DNA of 64,000 bases, from NCBI GenBank assembly GCA_025355995.1, contig JANXYQ010000079.1, positions 1 through 64,000 of the forward strand, written 5' to 3'. Both the position numbers and the translations under genes were made by a program. This DNA is from Spirochaetaceae bacterium (GTDB lineage Bacteria; Spirochaetota; Spirochaetia; Treponematales; Rectinemataceae). Below, piece after piece: positions 47,780 to 55,260 of the stretch (positions are counted from its first letter, which is position 1; each line of letters starts with the position of its first letter). The notes under the pieces were generated by a model that saw nothing but the letters and a program-made list of their open reading frames with translations, had not been told where the DNA came from and did no database searches.

Positions 47780-48130
47780 TTACGCTATCTCGATCCTCCT
47801 CGGCTTGGCGGCTTCCTTGACCTGGAGCTTCAGCGTCAGGATCCCGTCCACGAGAAAGCCATCTACTTTATCGCGGACGATCGTTTCGTCCAAGGTGAAG
47901 AGCTTCCTGTAGCCTTCGACGCGACGCTCCCGGAGAGGGTACTTCCCGCGAGGCTCCTCCCTTCGGCGCTCGCCGGATACCGAGAGCTCGTTGCCTTCGA
48001 TCCTCACTTCCAGGGCCTCCGTGGTCATGCCGGGCATCTCCAACTTGACGGTCACGAAGCCCGAGTCCTCCACGATAGTGCAGGCGGGGACGGTGGTCCT
48101 CCTGCCGGCCTTTGCGACATTCGTTTCCAT
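47780..48130 (-). CDS. Hsp20 small heat-shock protein
   Basis: 116 residues with a complete alpha-crystallin domain: VTVKLEMPGM, LSVSGERRRE, YRKLFTLDETIV and DGILTLKL. It prevents aggregation of unfolded proteins without ATP. The start is METNVAK, with AAGGAGG just upstream; an ATG five codons earlier overlaps the previous stop. It has no C-terminal IxI/V tail beyond RRIEIA. It is co-transcribed with the second Hsp20-like gene and may form mixed oligomers with it. Confidence 0.9.
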   Translation of the reverse strand: METNVAKAGRRTTVPACTIVEDSGFVTVKLEMPGMTTEALEVRIEGNELSVSGERRREEPRGKYPLRERRVEGYRKLFTLDETIVRDKVDGFLVDGILTLKLQVKEAAKPRRIEIA

Positions 48131-48141
48131 GCTGTCCTCCT

Positions 48142-48519
48142 TCATTGAACCGCGACTTCGATGAGCATCGTCTTGGCGTCCTCGCGCTTGGCGATGCGCA
48201 CCGCGAGGACGCCGTCCTTGAGCTCGGCCGCGATCTTGCCCGAGTCCTGGTCGACCTTTTTCTCTCCCTTGATCGTCAGGAGCGAACCCGCGACGCTCAC
48301 CTCGAGATCTCGCTTCTCGACCCCTGGCAGGTCAGCGACGACGAAGTATTCCTCCTCCGTCTCCACGATGTCGATCGCCGGCGCGGTCGGGCGATCCAAG
48401 AGCCCGGCGATGTCGGGGCTCTTGAAAGGATCGAGGGCTCGATCCATCTCCCCGCGCAAGCCATCGAAAGCCTCCCAGAGGTCGATCGGCGCCGGGCGTT
48501 CCCATCTTACTAGGTCCAT
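48142..48519 (-). CDS. Hsp20-like protein lacking middle of alpha-crystallin domain
   Basis: 125 residues. An N-terminal region (LVRWERPAPIDLWEAFDG) and the early part of the domain (YFVVADLPGVEKRDLEVSV, LLTIKGEKK) are typical of Hsp20, as is the ending DGVLAVRIAK. The usual stretch of about 30 residues between them, with the beta-6 loop and strand 7, is replaced by a few residues (VDQDSGK). That loop normally swaps in dimers, so this chain should pair differently. It is first of the pair and its leader has hairpins that may mask the ribosome site. Confidence 0.85.
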   Translation of the reverse strand: MDLVRWERPAPIDLWEAFDGLRGEMDRALDPFKSPDIAGLLDRPTAPAIDIVETEEEYFVVADLPGVEKRDLEVSVAGSLLTIKGEKKVDQDSGKIAAELKDGVLAVRIAKREDAKTMLIEVAVQ

Positions 48520-48805: not shown

Positions 48806-49189
48806 TCAGACCGGCTCATCGAGCCTGCACACGAGTTTCTGGGCGTCCGCGGCGTCCCCCGGCTCGAGCATCGCGTAGCCCTCCTCGTCCATGGACATGA
48901 CGAGAGCCTTGGTCCAGGACGAGACGTTGCGGGAGAGGAGCTCGTAGAGCGCCTTCCTGACGTCCGCCGAACGCCGGTCGGCGACCATCAGCTCGAGGTA
49001 GCCGCCGGCGAAGAGGGATACCGAGATCCAGCGCTTGGCCAGCACGAGCTCGCAGGCGTTGCGCGCGCCCCCGGCCAGGTCCTCGTGATCGCGCAGCCAC
49101 TCCTCGTGGAAGCCCGGGATCGGCAGGACCTCGCCCTCGGAGGTCAGCCAGCTCGCCCCGTAGACGAGGGCGTAGCGAGACGCGTTCAT
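48806..49189 (-). CDS. Hypothetical protein coupled to pseudouridine synthase
   Basis: 127 residues, not recognised. It begins MNASRYALVYGASWLTSEGE at an ATG that overlaps the stop of the pseudouridine synthase gene (ATGA). The body has mixed strands and helices with no signal peptide. A basic middle segment VLAKRWISVSLFAGGYLELMV is notable. The coupling suggests co-expression only. Confidence 0.7.
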   Translation of the reverse strand: MNASRYALVYGASWLTSEGEVLPIPGFHEEWLRDHEDLAGGARNACELVLAKRWISVSLFAGGYLELMVADRRSADVRKALYELLSRNVSSWTKALVMSMDEEGYAMLEPGDAADAQKLVCRLDEPV

Positions 49190-49863
49190 TGCGGCTCCGG
49201 CGCCGCCGGCTTGTCTGGCGGGGGGGCGTCTGGAAAGAGCGAAAGGAAGGCCGTGAAATGCTCGGGTATCGAGGCGCGCACGCGCGTCCCGCCCGGAAGG
49301 TCGAGGGACCAGGCGACCAGCAGGAGTCGCCTCAAGGAGGCCTCCCTGCGCAGGCGCCTGTTGAGGGCGAAGTCGCCGTGCCTGTCGTCGCCGAGGATGG
49401 GCAGGCCATGAGCCGCCAGGTGTATGCGTATCTGGTGGGTCCTCCCCGTCCCGAGCTCGAGCTCGAGGTAGGAATAGCCGCCGAACGAGGCGATAAGCCT
49501 CCAGGCCGTGGAGGCCGGCTTGTCGCCGCCCCGGCCGGGCACCGGCTCGTCGAAGCGCCCCGAGCTGGGGCTCGGGCCCGAGCCGCCGATCGGGGCGCCG
49601 GACACGATCGCTCGGTAGGTCTTGCGGAGTTCGCGCGACTCGACCAGGCGCGACCACGAGGCGGCGGCCGCGGCGGTCTTGGCCACGAGGAGGCAGCCCG
49701 CCGTCTCCTTGTCGAGCCTGTGGACGAGGAAGGGCCTGAAGCCGAAATCCCTCTCCACGGCCTCGACGACGGAGACTCGGACGCCCTCGCCGGGCTGCGA
49801 GGGGAGCCCTGCGGGCTTGTCCAATACGAGGATCTCTTCATCCTCGTAGAGCGCGACGATCAT
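49186..49863 (-). CDS. RluA-family pseudouridine synthase
   Basis: 225 residues, without an S4 domain. The catalytic motif is VHRLDKETAGCLLVAK (Asp at about residue 50), and GTGRTHQIRIHLAAHG and LVAWSLDLP are the later family motifs. It converts uridine to pseudouridine in rRNA or tRNA; the target site cannot be told. It follows the Nramp-related gene in the same direction, 63 bases apart. Confidence 0.92.
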   Translation of the reverse strand: MIVALYEDEEILVLDKPAGLPSQPGEGVRVSVVEAVERDFGFRPFLVHRLDKETAGCLLVAKTAAAAASWSRLVESRELRKTYRAIVSGAPIGGSGPSPSSGRFDEPVPGRGGDKPASTAWRLIASFGGYSYLELELGTGRTHQIRIHLAAHGLPILGDDRHGDFALNRRLRREASLRRLLLVAWSLDLPGGTRVRASIPEHFTAFLSLFPDAPPPDKPAAPEPQ

Positions 49864-49926
49864 TGGGGCGAACTATATGAAACCGCAGTCGAATTTACAA
49901 GACAGCGCGCGGGAAACCTTTCGCCC

Positions 49927-51177
49927 CTATCGCGCGAAAATGGACATGCCGAGGAATACGGCGTTCATGCACAGGAGCACCGCGGCCGTAGCCCAGCCGA
50001 TCAGGTTGCCCAGGGGCTTGTTGACGTAGGCTCCCATGACCTCCTTCTTGTTGATTATCAGCAGCATGCTGATGAGTACCACGGGCAGGAGGATGCCGTT
50101 GATGACCTGTGACCAGATCGTTATTTGGATGAGGGGCGCCCCGGGCAGGAGGATGATGAAGACGGACACGATCACGATAATCGTGAAAAGCCAGTAAAAC
50201 TGAGGCGCTTCCTTCCATTTCTTGTCGATGCCGGCCTCGAAGCCGAAGGCCTCGCAGACGTAGAAGGCGGTGGCGATGGGCAGTATGGTCGCGGAGAAGA
50301 TCGAGGCGACGAAGAGGCCGGCGGCGAAGATGATCGAGGCCGCCTTCCCGGCCAGGGGCCTGAGGGCGACGGCCGCGTCCTTGGCCTCCTCTATCCTCAC
50401 TCCGTTCACGTGGAGGGTGGACGCGCAGGCCACGATGATGAAGAAGGCCACGACGACGGTGATGAAGGCGCCGACGACTACGTCCGCGACGGTGTATTTG
50501 TATTTCTCGAGGGTCAGTCCCTTCTCGATGACGGCCGACTGCATGTAGAACTGCATCCACGGGGCGATAGTCGTGCCCACGATGCCGAGCACCATGACGA
50601 CGTAGGCGAAGTCGAATTTCTCCTGCGGATGGATCATCGCCTTGCCTATCGCGCTCCAGTCGGGCTTGCCCAGCAGGGCGGACACGATATAGGACAGGAG
50701 GAAGAGGCTGAACACCAGGAAGACCTTCTCGGCCGACTTGTAGCTGCCCTTCACGACCAGGAGCCACACCGCGACGGCGGAAAGGGGCACCGCTACGTAC
50801 TTGCTCACGCCGAGGGCCTGCATCGATCCCGCGACGCCCGCGAACTCCGTGGTGGTGTTGCCGATGTCGGCCAGGATGAGGCCGACGAAGATCAAGAAGG
50901 TGACCTTGACCCCGGCGTTCTCCCGGATGAGGTCCGCGAGGCCCTTGCCCGTCACGATGCCCATGCGGGCGTTCATCTCCTGTATCACGATGAGGACGAG
51001 GAGGGCGGGGACGAGGGTCCATAGGATGTCGTAGCCGTAGGTCGCGCCGGCGACCGAGTAGGTGGTGATGCCGCCCGCGTCGTTGTCGACCGAGCCGGTG
51101 ATTATTCCCGGCCCAAGGACCGAGAGGAACACGAGGAGGCCTGCGAAGATCGACTTCGCGTTGGTTTTCTTGAGCAT
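49927..51177 (-). CDS. Nramp-related (NRMT-like) divalent metal transporter
   Basis: A 416-residue polytopic membrane protein with about 11 helices. It is related to Nramp but the metal-binding motif of helix 1 reads SVDNDAGGITTYS in place of DPGN, and helix 6 (GTTIAPWMQFYMQS) lacks the Met-Pro-His motif of MntH. The NRMT clade, which has such changes, carries Mg. A role in Mg uptake is thus likely, though Mn or other ions remain possible. It lies 22 bases downstream of a soluble MgtE_N/CBS protein, which suggests a pair. Confidence 0.82.
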   Translation of the reverse strand: MLKKTNAKSIFAGLLVFLSVLGPGIITGSVDNDAGGITTYSVAGATYGYDILWTLVPALLVLIVIQEMNARMGIVTGKGLADLIRENAGVKVTFLIFVGLILADIGNTTTEFAGVAGSMQALGVSKYVAVPLSAVAVWLLVVKGSYKSAEKVFLVFSLFLLSYIVSALLGKPDWSAIGKAMIHPQEKFDFAYVVMVLGIVGTTIAPWMQFYMQSAVIEKGLTLEKYKYTVADVVVGAFITVVVAFFIIVACASTLHVNGVRIEEAKDAAVALRPLAGKAASIIFAAGLFVASIFSATILPIATAFYVCEAFGFEAGIDKKWKEAPQFYWLFTIIVIVSVFIILLPGAPLIQITIWSQVINGILLPVVLISMLLIINKKEVMGAYVNKPLGNLIGWATAAVLLCMNAVFLGMSIFAR

Positions 51178-51199
51178 GGTATGATTCCCCGGCTGATTA

Positions 51200-52438
51200 T
51201 CAGCGCTTGTGCATTACGTATTCGAGGACGTCCTCGATCACTATGGTCCCCGCCATCTTGCCCTCGGCGTCCACGACGGGCGCCGTATGGAGCTTGTACT
51301 TGAGCATCAGCTCCGCGAGGGAGCCCGCCCCGTCCGTGTCGTGCAGGGGGTCGGTCACCGAGTTCATGATCTCGCCCAGGCGCGCCTGGGGATCGGCGAC
51401 GACTATGTCCCTGAGCGAGACCGTGGCGACGTACTTGCCCCGGGCGTCCAGGACGTAGACGCTGTAGACGACCTCCGCCTCGGGCTTGACCGTCCTGAGC
51501 TCGGCCATCGCGTCGGCCACCTTCATCGACTGGTTGAAGAAGACGTAGTCCTTGGACATGAGGGAGCCCACCGAGTCCTCCGGGTAGGCCATGAGGGTCC
51601 TGACCTCGCTGGAGGAGGAGGTCTCCATCTCCGCGAGGAGGCGCTCGGCCTTCTCCGCCTTGAGCTCGTCGAGGATGTCGGCGACCTCGTCGGCGGGCAT
51701 CTTCTCGAGGACGTCGGCGGCCCTCTCGTCGGACATGTTCTCGAGGATCCGGACCTGGGCGCCGGGCTCGAGCTCCTCGAGGACGTCGGCCGCCCTCTCC
51801 TCGTCCAGCGAGTTGAAGAGCGCCACCCTCGAGGCGTGGTCCAGCTCCTCGAGGATGTCGGCCAGGTCCGAGGGGTGGATGCCGTCGAGCTTGGAATAGG
51901 CCTTGGACAGCTTGATCTGGGTGCTCGAGAAATCGACCGCCTCGACCTCGTTCCAGAGGATGAGCTTGCTCGGCAGGGACTTCCCGAAGACCCTGAGCAG
52001 GCGCGAGAGGGGCTTGGCGAAGCCGAGCCTGCGGAACAGGCCCTCGAGGCCCACGTCTACGGCCACTAGGAAGCTGCCGGACGAGCCCGAGTCGAGGACC
52101 AGGTCGTTGACCCGCACCAGCTTGCGCCCGTCCACGTCGACGATCTGCTTGTCGATCAGGTGCTTTTTCAGATAGAGGAGGTTCTCGGTGGAAAGGGAGG
52201 CGTCCCTCAGGGCGGAGGCGACGAAGGAATAACGGCCCTCCACGCGCCTGACGCGGATCGGCCCGGAGTCGACGAGCCTCTGCCCCTCGCGGGTGGAGAT
52301 CGAGGCGGCGACGACCTTGGGCCGCTGGGAGCCCACGTCGACGATGAGGTCGCGCAGCCGGCCGACGAAATCGTCGGCCTCGCCGAAGACCTTGGAGCCG
52401 AGGAGCCTGCTGAAGTAAATAGTGGTATTGGGATTCAT
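51200..52438 (-). CDS. Soluble PRC-MgtE_N-CBS protein
   Basis: 412 residues without membrane helices. A PRC-barrel-like double domain (1-160) is followed by an MgtE N-terminal helical superhelix (about 175-275, with repeats such as LADILEELDHASRVALFNSL and DVLEELEPGAQVRIL) and a CBS pair (about 285-412, e.g. VGSLMSKDYVFFNQSMKVAD and HTAPVVDAEGKMAGTIVI). In MgtE these two parts gate the channel according to cytosolic Mg. Here the transmembrane part is absent and the Nramp-related gene follows. A gating or sensing subunit in trans is the natural inference. Started at MNPNTT with GGAGG upstream. Confidence 0.85.
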   Translation of the reverse strand: MNPNTTIYFSRLLGSKVFGEADDFVGRLRDLIVDVGSQRPKVVAASISTREGQRLVDSGPIRVRRVEGRYSFVASALRDASLSTENLLYLKKHLIDKQIVDVDGRKLVRVNDLVLDSGSSGSFLVAVDVGLEGLFRRLGFAKPLSRLLRVFGKSLPSKLILWNEVEAVDFSSTQIKLSKAYSKLDGIHPSDLADILEELDHASRVALFNSLDEERAADVLEELEPGAQVRILENMSDERAADVLEKMPADEVADILDELKAEKAERLLAEMETSSSSEVRTLMAYPEDSVGSLMSKDYVFFNQSMKVADAMAELRTVKPEAEVVYSVYVLDARGKYVATVSLRDIVVADPQARLGEIMNSVTDPLHDTDGAGSLAELMLKYKLHTAPVVDAEGKMAGTIVIEDVLEYVMHKR

Positions 52439-52700
52439 CGCGGTTTCCTCCGATTGCATACGGCGCGGAGGGACCGCCCTAGAGGGGAGGAGCCCCGCGT
52501 CAACGGACTTGGGTGTCTCGGTAACTACCTGGGCCTGCGTCCATAGACGGAAAGCCTCCTCTGGGCGGGGTAGGGGCTCCTAGGGACCCCTGGGGCCGTT
52601 TCAGGGCCCTCCGCTAGGTATAGCCCGAGCCGCGGATCGAGTCAATCAATCGGGCAGCGAAGCCTCGATATTCCCGCCCGGCCGTGCTAACCTTCCGGGC
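52439..52700. promoter_or_regulatory. Divergent region with GC-rich structured leader
   Basis: 262 bases between the Mg-type operon and the CDF exporter. The middle, on the minus strand, contains GC-rich inverted repeats, among them 52572-52591 (AGGGG...CCCCT) and GGGCC/GGCCC beside it. This would be the 5' leader of the PRC-MgtE_N-CBS gene. A metal riboswitch is plausible, but I find no convincing match to the M-box or yybP-ykoY consensus. Confidence 0.4.
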
Positions 52701-53606
52701 ATGGAAGAGCGCGGCTCGCTGCTGAACAAGGCTTCGGTCATCGCCCTCGTCGGCAACGCGATCCTCGCGGCGGCCAAGCTGGCCATCGGCTTTCTCTCCG
52801 GATCCCTGGCCGTCGTGGGCGACGGTATAGACTCCTCGACCGACGTGGTCATCGCCGTCGTCGCCCTCTTCACGGCGCGCATCGTGGACAAGCCGGGGGA
52901 CCGAGAGCACCCCTACGGCCACTCGAGGGCCGAGACCGTCGCCACGACCATCCTGGCCTTCATAGTCTTCTTCGCGGGCTCCCAACTCCTGGTACGGACG
53001 GCGACGGCGCTGATATCCGGCGAGGCCGCGGAGCTTCCCTCGAGGATAGCAATCGCCGTGACCGCGGTATCCATAGTCGGCAAGCTCCTCCTTTCCTGGA
53101 GCCAGTTCCACTACGGGAAGAAGGCCGGCAGCTCAATGCTGATCGCCAACGGCAAGAACATGCGCGGCGACGTGGTCATCTCGGCTTCGGTGCTCGTGGG
53201 CCTGGGCTTCACCTTCCTGCTTCGCATGCCCATCCTGGACCGCGTCACCGCCCTGCTCGTATCGTTCTGGATAATCAAGGTCGCCGCGGGCATCTTCCGC
53301 GAGGTCAACACCGAGCTCATGGACGGTACCGACGGCGAGGGCCCCTACGGCGAGATCTTCGCCGCCGTCTCCTCGGTCGCGGGGGCAGGGAATCCCCACC
53401 GCACGCGCGTCCGCAGGCTGGGCTCCATACTCATCGTCGACCTCGACATCGAGGTCGATCCCGAGCTCAGCGTCGCCGCGGCCCACGGCATAGCGGTCGA
53501 GGTCGAGCGCGCGATCAAGCGCGCCCTGCCGGAGGTCTACGACGTCATCGTCCACATCGAGCCGCGCGGCAACTCGGAGGACGAGCGCTTCGGCGTGAGG
53601 CCCTAA
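52701..53606 (+). CDS. Cation diffusion facilitator transporter
   Basis: 301 residues. Six membrane helices carry the metal-site residues of CDF exporters: GDGIDSSTDVV, HPYGHSRAETV and GKNMRGDVVIS. A cytosolic ferredoxin-like domain ends the protein (VDLDIEVDPELSVAAAHGIA, VIVHIEPRGN). It exports divalent cations (Zn, Mn, Fe, Co, or Mg) in exchange for protons. It is divergent from the Mg-type import pair, so it may balance the same metal. No signature separates Zn from Mn. Confidence 0.9.
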   Translation: MEERGSLLNKASVIALVGNAILAAAKLAIGFLSGSLAVVGDGIDSSTDVVIAVVALFTARIVDKPGDREHPYGHSRAETVATTILAFIVFFAGSQLLVRTATALISGEAAELPSRIAIAVTAVSIVGKLLLSWSQFHYGKKAGSSMLIANGKNMRGDVVISASVLVGLGFTFLLRMPILDRVTALLVSFWIIKVAAGIFREVNTELMDGTDGEGPYGEIFAAVSSVAGAGNPHRTRVRRLGSILIVDLDIEVDPELSVAAAHGIAVEVERAIKRALPEVYDVIVHIEPRGNSEDERFGVRP

Positions 53607-53662
53607 GTTGGAATTGCCGAATTCCCCGTCCTGGGTTATATTCAATTCAGCAAAGGGAAACC

Positions 53663-54049
53663 ATGGAAGCGATAAGCGACCTAACCTGGCTGCGTCAGCT
53701 TTCCCTCTCGTCGGTGGAGCGATTCGAGCTCCGCGGCTTCGGTATCGCCATAGTCTCCATGCCGCCCACCCCTGCCCGCCACGAGGAGCGTTACCGCTAC
53801 CGACTCCTCGCCTTCGACCCAACCCTCGGCAAGCCCGTACTCTCGGTAGACCTCGAGAGCGACATCCTCGGCGACTATTGCCTGGCGATCCAGGCCGGTC
53901 GGGAACATCGGGTGCTCGCCCGATACGACATGCCGCCTACCCTGGAGGAATTCCGGTCCCGCGCCCTAGCGGAGGCCGAGGCCGCCCTCCCCCCCTGCCC
54001 CACCGCGCCTCCGCCGAGGGGCCAAGCCCGCAAGCGCCGAAGGACTTGA
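53663..54049 (+). CDS. Hypothetical soluble protein
   Basis: 128 residues with no domain I know. It starts at MEAISD with AAAGGGAAACC upstream, and ends with a basic Pro/Arg tail (PPRGQARKRRRT). It has no signal peptide. The transglutaminase-like gene starts 29 bases later, so they may share a transcript. Confidence 0.6.
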   Translation: MEAISDLTWLRQLSLSSVERFELRGFGIAIVSMPPTPARHEERYRYRLLAFDPTLGKPVLSVDLESDILGDYCLAIQAGREHRVLARYDMPPTLEEFRSRALAEAEAALPPCPTAPPPRGQARKRRRT

Positions 54050-54078
54050 TCGAAGCCTCGATCGGCCGATACTAGACT

Positions 54079-55260
54079 ATGATGCGATTCCGCCGCCTAC
54101 CCCGCGCGATCCTGCTAGCCCTCCTCGTCCTCGGCTCCATGGGCCGCGCCTGGCCCGAGCAGCTGAAGTCCAAACTGGGCTTTTTCGAGGACATGCCCTC
54201 GGGCTTCAGCCTAAAAGGCGGGGACGGCAAGACGCGTTTCGCCTTCGCCGATCCCGAGGGCGGCATGGAATACGACATCTTCGCCTACGAGCCCGGGCGC
54301 TTCGCCGACGCCGCCGCCCTATCGAGCCAAACCCTCGGCAAGCTCGGTTCCGCCGGCGATACGACGCCCTATTCCTACGAGGGGCGCCCCGCCGTCCTGG
54401 CAGAGCTCGGCTTCGCCCTGGACGGAGTCAAGCAGAAGGGCTACGGCCTGTTCATCGAGGGGAGGAAGAAGTCTGGCGGCAGGGGCGGCATCGACGAGTA
54501 CAGCTACGCCCTCCTCGCCTACGCGCCCGAATCCGATTTCGAGGCCTACTCGGACTTCATACTATCCTGCCTCGATTCCTTCTCCGTCGACGCTGCCGCG
54601 AAGCGCTCGCCGGGCCCGATAAGCCAGTTCACCCTCGATTGGCCCCCCGCGCGCGACAAGGAGAGGACCGTCGCCCTCGTCGGCGGCGGGAGCGCCAGCC
54701 TGCCCTGGGCCGACGACGAGGCGGTCCAGGAAGCCCAGACCTGCACGCGGGAATACAAGGTGCTGACCGCCTACGCGAACGAGCCGGTCCTGTGGCAGGA
54801 CGCCTGGGCCCGCTTCTATAGGATGGCCTACCGCGAGTCCGCCGCGAGGCTGGACCGCCTCGCCCTCGAGACGGCGAAGGCGCTGCCCTCCGACGACCCG
54901 ACCGAGGCCGCGAGAAGGATCCTCGCCTGGGTGCAGGGCTTCGTCTACGAGCGGGACGAGAAAGGCACGGATTTCATCCCGCCGCTCGCCGCGGCCTACG
55001 GTGCCACCGGGGACTGCGACTCCCGCGCCGTCGTCGCCTCCATCGTCCTCGAGCGGCTCGGCATAGATTCCATACTGATGGTCTCGAGGGACTATTCCCA
55101 CGCGATGCTCGGCGTCGACGTAACCGGCGGCGGCCAGCGCTTCGCGTTCAACGGCAAGAAGTACCTGGTGGGGGAGACGACCGCCAAGGTCGGCTTGGGG
55201 ATGATCGCCGCGGATATGTCCGACTGGAGCAAGTGGCTGGGCATAGACCTGGGCAACTAG
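54079..55260 (+). CDS. Exported transglutaminase-like protein
   Basis: 393 residues. A signal peptide (AILLALLVLGSMGRAWP) precedes a N-terminal domain of unknown type. The C-terminal part has a transglutaminase-like core with the Cys in GATGDCDSRAVVAS (about 311), the His in YSHAMLGVD and an acidic position in LVGETT. Bacterial members are cysteine peptidases or protein cross-linkers of the envelope. The acidic position holds Glu instead of the usual Asp. It precedes a polysaccharide deacetylase gene by 46 bases. Confidence 0.75.
   Translation: MMRFRRLPRAILLALLVLGSMGRAWPEQLKSKLGFFEDMPSGFSLKGGDGKTRFAFADPEGGMEYDIFAYEPGRFADAAALSSQTLGKLGSAGDTTPYSYEGRPAVLAELGFALDGVKQKGYGLFIEGRKKSGGRGGIDEYSYALLAYAPESDFEAYSDFILSCLDSFSVDAAAKRSPGPISQFTLDWPPARDKERTVALVGGGSASLPWADDEAVQEAQTCTREYKVLTAYANEPVLWQDAWARFYRMAYRESAARLDRLALETAKALPSDDPTEAARRILAWVQGFVYERDEKGTDFIPPLAAAYGATGDCDSRAVVASIVLERLGIDSILMVSRDYSHAMLGVDVTGGGQRFAFNGKKYLVGETTAKVGLGMIAADMSDWSKWLGIDLGN

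Follow-up and report, generated by a model that had tools for sequence, protein, structure and literature searches.

A spirochaete NRMT transporter gene with a conserved MgtE-like soluble partner: a plausible Mg2+ gate acting in trans

Previous work has shown that most members of the NrmT family adjoin a gene resembling the cytoplasmic domain of MgtE (Shin et al. 2014, PMC4072509), and cytoplasmic feedback or chaperone activity were the roles about which its authors speculated, so that trans Mg2+ feedback by an MgtE-like protein is already in print as speculation. In the same study the Clostridium acetobutylicum NRMT transported without its MgtE-like partner, and A. capsulatum NrmT favoured Mn2+, rescuing the Mn2+ defect fully and the Mg2+ defect only at low millimolar Mg2+; expressing the A. 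capsulatum partner as well made no measurable change (PMC4072509). EleNRMT carries both Mg2+ and Mn2+ (PMC8806188). PRC and CBS domains are not mentioned in the main text of PMC4072509, and our literature searches found no paper joining the PRC barrel with MgtE nor, by domain names, one joining MgtE_N with Nramp.

The locus analysed here lies in a 64,000-nucleotide stretch of DNA from a Spirochaetaceae bacterium (the window), and it adds a spirochaete example to the published pairing of NrmT with an MgtE fragment, since a homolog of the MgtE N-terminal cytoplasmic domain adjoins nrmT, as in the operons of Shin et al. New relative to the 2014 study are the co-occurrence counts, the pattern of sensor residues, the unlinked M-box pairs and the KimA neighbour reported below. 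We read the two genes as a two-protein Mg2+ uptake unit in which a Mg2+-sensing gate acts in trans on the NRMT, a reading to which we give a probability of about 0.52.

The gene pair and its transporter

The soluble-protein gene (whose product is called the partner below) and the transporter gene (Table 1) read as one operon. The preliminary description had put them 22 bases apart, and exactly 22 nt separate them; among 77 related pairs, 74 have a gap of no more than 40 bp, and the median is 11 bp. The partner open reading frame runs from 52459 to 51200 (419 aa), and translation from ATG 52438 would yield 412 aa; the latter codon, the start taken in the preliminary description, has the better Shine-Dalgarno sequence (GGAGG AAACCGCG ATG), and the relatives L060 and L062 have partners of the same 412-aa length. 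Elsewhere in the source genome there are one CorA and one MntH-like Nramp (C122, 30% identity); a MgtE_N domain search found that domain only in the window's soluble protein and no canonical MgtE in this genome. Two adjoining ORFs at 47780-48519 (-) of the window resemble small heat-shock (Hsp20-like) genes by sequence impression only.

Table 1. Features at the locus, in window coordinates
Feature	Position	Strand	Basis
NRMT-clade Nramp transporter, 416 aa, predicted Mg2+/Mn2+ uptake	49927..51177	-	PF01566, EleNRMT match, DxxG-TxxA signature
Intergenic spacer, 22 nt, with SD-like GGGGAA	51178..51199	-	gap in related pairs
Soluble PRC-(PRC-like)-MgtE_N-CBS-CBS protein	51200..52438	-	Pfam, AlphaFold model, Foldseek
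CDF-family cation exporter (Cation_efflux + ZT_dimer), divergent	52701..53606	+	domain matches

The transporter matches PF01566 (E 3e-95), and its best solved relative is EleNRMT (7qia, E 8e-108), followed by MntH (E 8e-36). Its metal motifs are indeed changed, with VDNDAGG (D33, G36) and GTTIAPWM (T202, A205, W207); helix 1 thus carries DxxG and helix 6 TxxA (TxxA/T being the general NRMT pattern) instead of the DxxN and (A/C)xxM motifs, the proton-pathway histidines of helix 6b are lost (W207 and M212 in the window transporter) and a Glu is retained at E111. At the positions of D33, G36, T202, A205 and W207, 95 NRMT sequences have D in 95, G in 95, T in 95, A in 89 and W in 94, and 11 MntH-like sequences have mostly D, N, A and M at the first four, with DxxN-AxxM in 10 of the 11. 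Membership of the NRMT clade is supported by these residues, and the transporter is a predicted Mg2+ carrier.

The partner might instead gate the NRMT in response to Mn2+, with Mn2+ (or both ions) as the ion sensed and carried. Such a reading would suit the full Mn2+ rescue and limited Mg2+ rescue by the A. capsulatum NrmT, which lies beside a partner (PMC4072509), the carriage of both ions by EleNRMT and the lack of an M-box in the window (below); we consider it unlikely, however, as the source genome also has its canonical MntH-like Nramp and the window NRMT falls in a clade that has M-box-controlled members.

Conservation, regulation and neighbours of the pair

Full-length partners occur in nine of the 296 genomes of the phylum and NRMTs (at least 47% identity) in the same nine, in every one of which the two genes are adjacent and in the same order; drawing the same nine of 296 twice by chance would have a probability of about 2e-17, a value exaggerated by the relatedness of the genomes. 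Directly upstream of the NRMT gene, a partner was found at 77 of the best 80 NRMT loci from GTDB genomes, a set made up of the top matches to the query, so that more distant NRMTs may differ. One of the other three (L106) is cut by a contig end, one (L137) lies beside a contig end in a genome whose partner is at another contig end, and the genome of the third (L113) has an unlinked partner (L186). In 249 Bacillota genomes, a partner, full or truncated, adjoins the NRMT gene in 23 of 24 cases. The preliminary description had looked to co-occurrence and to gene fusion for its reading of the pair; co-occurrence is borne out (9 of 9 both ways in the phylum), and no partner-NRMT fusion was found among the best 80 loci. 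The data support a pairing that looks obligate, in which the MgtE-type sensor module is a separate protein.

Two variants of the arrangement were seen in passing. In C. manihotivorum (L146:7449-10149) the NRMT gene is broken by a transposase-like ORF and adjoins an intact partner gene, and at L145:4653-7597 a 267-aa partner ORF without the PRC region, through either a frameshift or a true loss, lies between an M-box and the NRMT gene.

No M-box or other Rfam element was found in positions 49000-54500 of the window, and a snoRNA match in the window (E 0.2) was taken as chance. Of 13 other loci tested, 10 have an M-box ahead of the pair, and all ten are in Bacillota. G551 and G552, two genomes from a single Bacillota lineage, each have only one strong NRMT gene and only one full-length partner gene. 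These two genes are unlinked, lying 0.93 Mb apart in G551, and each has its own M-box Mg2+ riboswitch, so both genes are under Mg2+-riboswitch control in Bacillota. That the two are co-regulated although unlinked speaks for a common task performed in trans. In a further genome with unlinked partner and NRMT genes (G587), an M-box is found at the NRMT gene only.

Solo partner genes with an M-box of their own are present at L141, L143, L147, L178 and L180; those at L178 and L180 are unlinked to the NRMT genes of their genomes (L182 and L183), which also have their own M-boxes, and a pfkA-like gene (assigned from sequence, not by Pfam) follows the L178 partner. In C. ljungdahlii (L143:5431-7097) the M-box is followed by a partner split into PRC-MgtE_N and CBS halves, as in C. 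acetobutylicum, and the genome has a lone NRMT elsewhere (L144) plus a separate linked pair. Solo partner fragments may already be drawn in Fig. S5 of Shin et al. (2014).

The divergent CDF gene starts 262 bp from ATG 52438. Its divergence from the pair was described correctly, but the proposal of a complete import-gate-export module is not supported: of the 80 relatives, only three have a CDF gene nearby (in another orientation in L060, and a distant CDF in L102 and L103), and there is none near the pair in the eight other pair-bearing genomes of the phylum; on gene context the exporter is rejected as a conserved part of the unit. Other transporter neighbours are single cases. In G305 (L140:6022-9408) a PRC-MgtE_N-CBS gene lies 186 bp before a gene for a KimA-like APC permease (6s3k, E 4e-110), which is followed by a CitMHS-family transporter gene, with no M-box, and in a close spirochaete relative (L061:3451-4698) corA lies directly upstream of the partner-NRMT pair.

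The PRC-MgtE_N-CBS protein could on this basis be a portable sensor of Mg2+ (or Mg-ATP) with several membrane clients, of which NRMT is the commonest. The M-box-controlled solo genes, the KimA-like permease, the corA neighbour and the pfkA-like gene all lean that way, yet nearly all genomes with solo genes have an NRMT (the exception, G588, is possibly incomplete) and the KimA and corA neighbours are isolated instances, and we regard this explanation as improbable. It is also rather doubtful that the protein is a Mg2+ sensor subunit that diffuses freely, is controlled by riboswitches and acts in trans on NRMT, on KimA-type K+ importers and perhaps on CorA; if such a multi-client reading were true, the MgtE gate would be a portable module and would connect Mg2+ with K+ homeostasis. 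Among the new leads, the unlinked pairs with an M-box at each gene and the KimA case are the most useful, and for the preferred reading, a gate acting in trans on NRMT, clean systems are offered by G551 and G552 and by solo genes like the split one of C. ljungdahlii.

The soluble partner as a candidate sensor

The architecture attributed to the soluble protein is confirmed, with matches above the Pfam gathering score to PRC (residues 12-57, E 7e-10), MgtE_N (residues 194-295, E 2e-29) and two CBS domains (E 5e-12), as is its reported lack of a membrane part: no 19-residue window exceeds a KD value of 1.6, vs 102 such windows in the transporter. The NCBIfam mgtE model gives 161 bits, below its cut-off of 233, and a FliG domain match (E 1e-4) was under the cut-off and is taken as similarity to the helical repeats of MgtE_N. 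The AlphaFold model (58-row alignment, mean pLDDT 83) has, in order, beta-barrels at about residues 12-80 and 94-175, a helical N domain and a CBS pair. Its N-CBS half matches the cytosolic domains of MgtE (8gpv, Z 22.6; 2yvy, Z 21.6), and Foldseek gives a TM(target) of 0.84 to 2yvy/8gpv; the PDB structure matches listed for the protein are filled by the CBS domain and include no PRC match. The second barrel is weakly PRC by sequence (17 bits vs the Pfam cut-off of 21.2), and within this region (residues 103-144) lie most of the 13 invariant positions of the partner family, including D103, Q105, R116, N118, D119, D135 and R144.

The Mg2+-site positions of Thermus thermophilus MgtE (TtMgtE) were taken from PMC5882242 and mapped onto 87 partners and 21 canonical MgtEs. 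Among the partners, Tt D91 is kept as D in 78, D95 as D in 86, and E59 is replaced by D in 73; D226 is D in only nine, E258 is E in ten, and at 259 most have K, N, R or E, so that residues of the plug helix and of Mg5 are for the most part lost. In the canonical MgtEs, E255, E258 and D259 are retained in 20-21 of 21. Taken over the cytosolic Mg2-Mg7 sites, acidic residues are present at 59, 91, 95, 247 and 250 and lost at 226, 258 and 259. Position 247 is presumably the general CBS TxxD aspartate, and we do not count it toward Mg2+ sensing. The window protein keeps D225, D257, D261 and D410, of which D257 and D261 correspond to Tt D91 and D95, has K387 in place of D226 and L in place of the ATP-site F227 of MgtE, and ends at about Tt position 256, without residues 258-259 and without the plug helix. 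To judge from these residues, the N-CBS clamp looks kept and the coupling to the plug helix gone in the partners, a combination that would suit a sensor passing its output to another protein.

A metal chaperone or a folding or stability factor for NRMT, the alternative to a gate named by Shin et al. (PMC4072509), would agree with the second PRC-like region, not the sensor, being the most conserved part, but it has little probability in our view given that the conserved acidic positions and the N-CBS architecture as a whole are those of a known gating module.

The preliminary description had named structure prediction of the complex as a check. Both genes are in one frame at 33 loci, and for modelling one of these (L090) was translated straight across its stop codons, as a 1:1 chain only and with 31 of the 100 alignment rows paired. 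In the resulting AlphaFold model both halves are well folded and the linker is disordered, and this linked 1:1 model gave no confident partner-NRMT interface (pTM 0.51).

Trans-gating is plausible, and better supported than before. By analogy with MgtE, the gate would work as follows. The NRMT would bring in Mg2+, and probably Mn2+ too, without proton coupling. The soluble protein would be the N-CBS cytosolic sensor of MgtE, separated from the pore of that channel and with PRC barrels added; at high cytosolic Mg2+ it would bind the ion and its N and CBS domains would clamp together as they do in MgtE. Docking on the cytosolic face of the NRMT, probably through its PRC part, the clamped protein may then slow the transporter or lock it. 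Transport without the partner (PMC4072509) is a better fit to such a gate than to an essential subunit. Weighing against the gate are the lack of a predicted interface, the K in place of D226, the L in place of F227 and the missing plug helix of the window protein, the absence of an M-box in the window and, in PMC4072509, the Mn2+ preference of the A. capsulatum transporter and the null result on co-expressing its partner.

Bacterial Mg2+ importers include the NRMTs as a recognised class, and these have a near-constant soluble companion. Should that companion be a gate acting in trans, one transporter family would have had its regulatory half detached and re-used on a structurally unrelated LeuT-fold transporter.

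Comparison with known systems

The closest described systems are the pairs of Shin et al. (Ca_c0685 of C. acetobutylicum, and A. capsulatum), which share with the window the two genes, their arrangement and the proposed feedback role; the window differs in being from a spirochaete and in having no M-box, an element found in only some members. The transporter resembles EleNRMT (7qia, PMC8806188) in its DxxG-TxxA site, its helix 3 Glu and the Trp in place of the first helix-6 His, and differs at the second helix-6 position, which is Asn in EleNRMT and Met in the window NRMT. With T. thermophilus MgtE (2yvy/2zy9) the soluble protein has in common the N domain and CBS pair (Z 21-22) and several acidic sensing positions, whereas it lacks the membrane part and plug helix, has lost D226, E258 and D259, and has gained PRC barrels.
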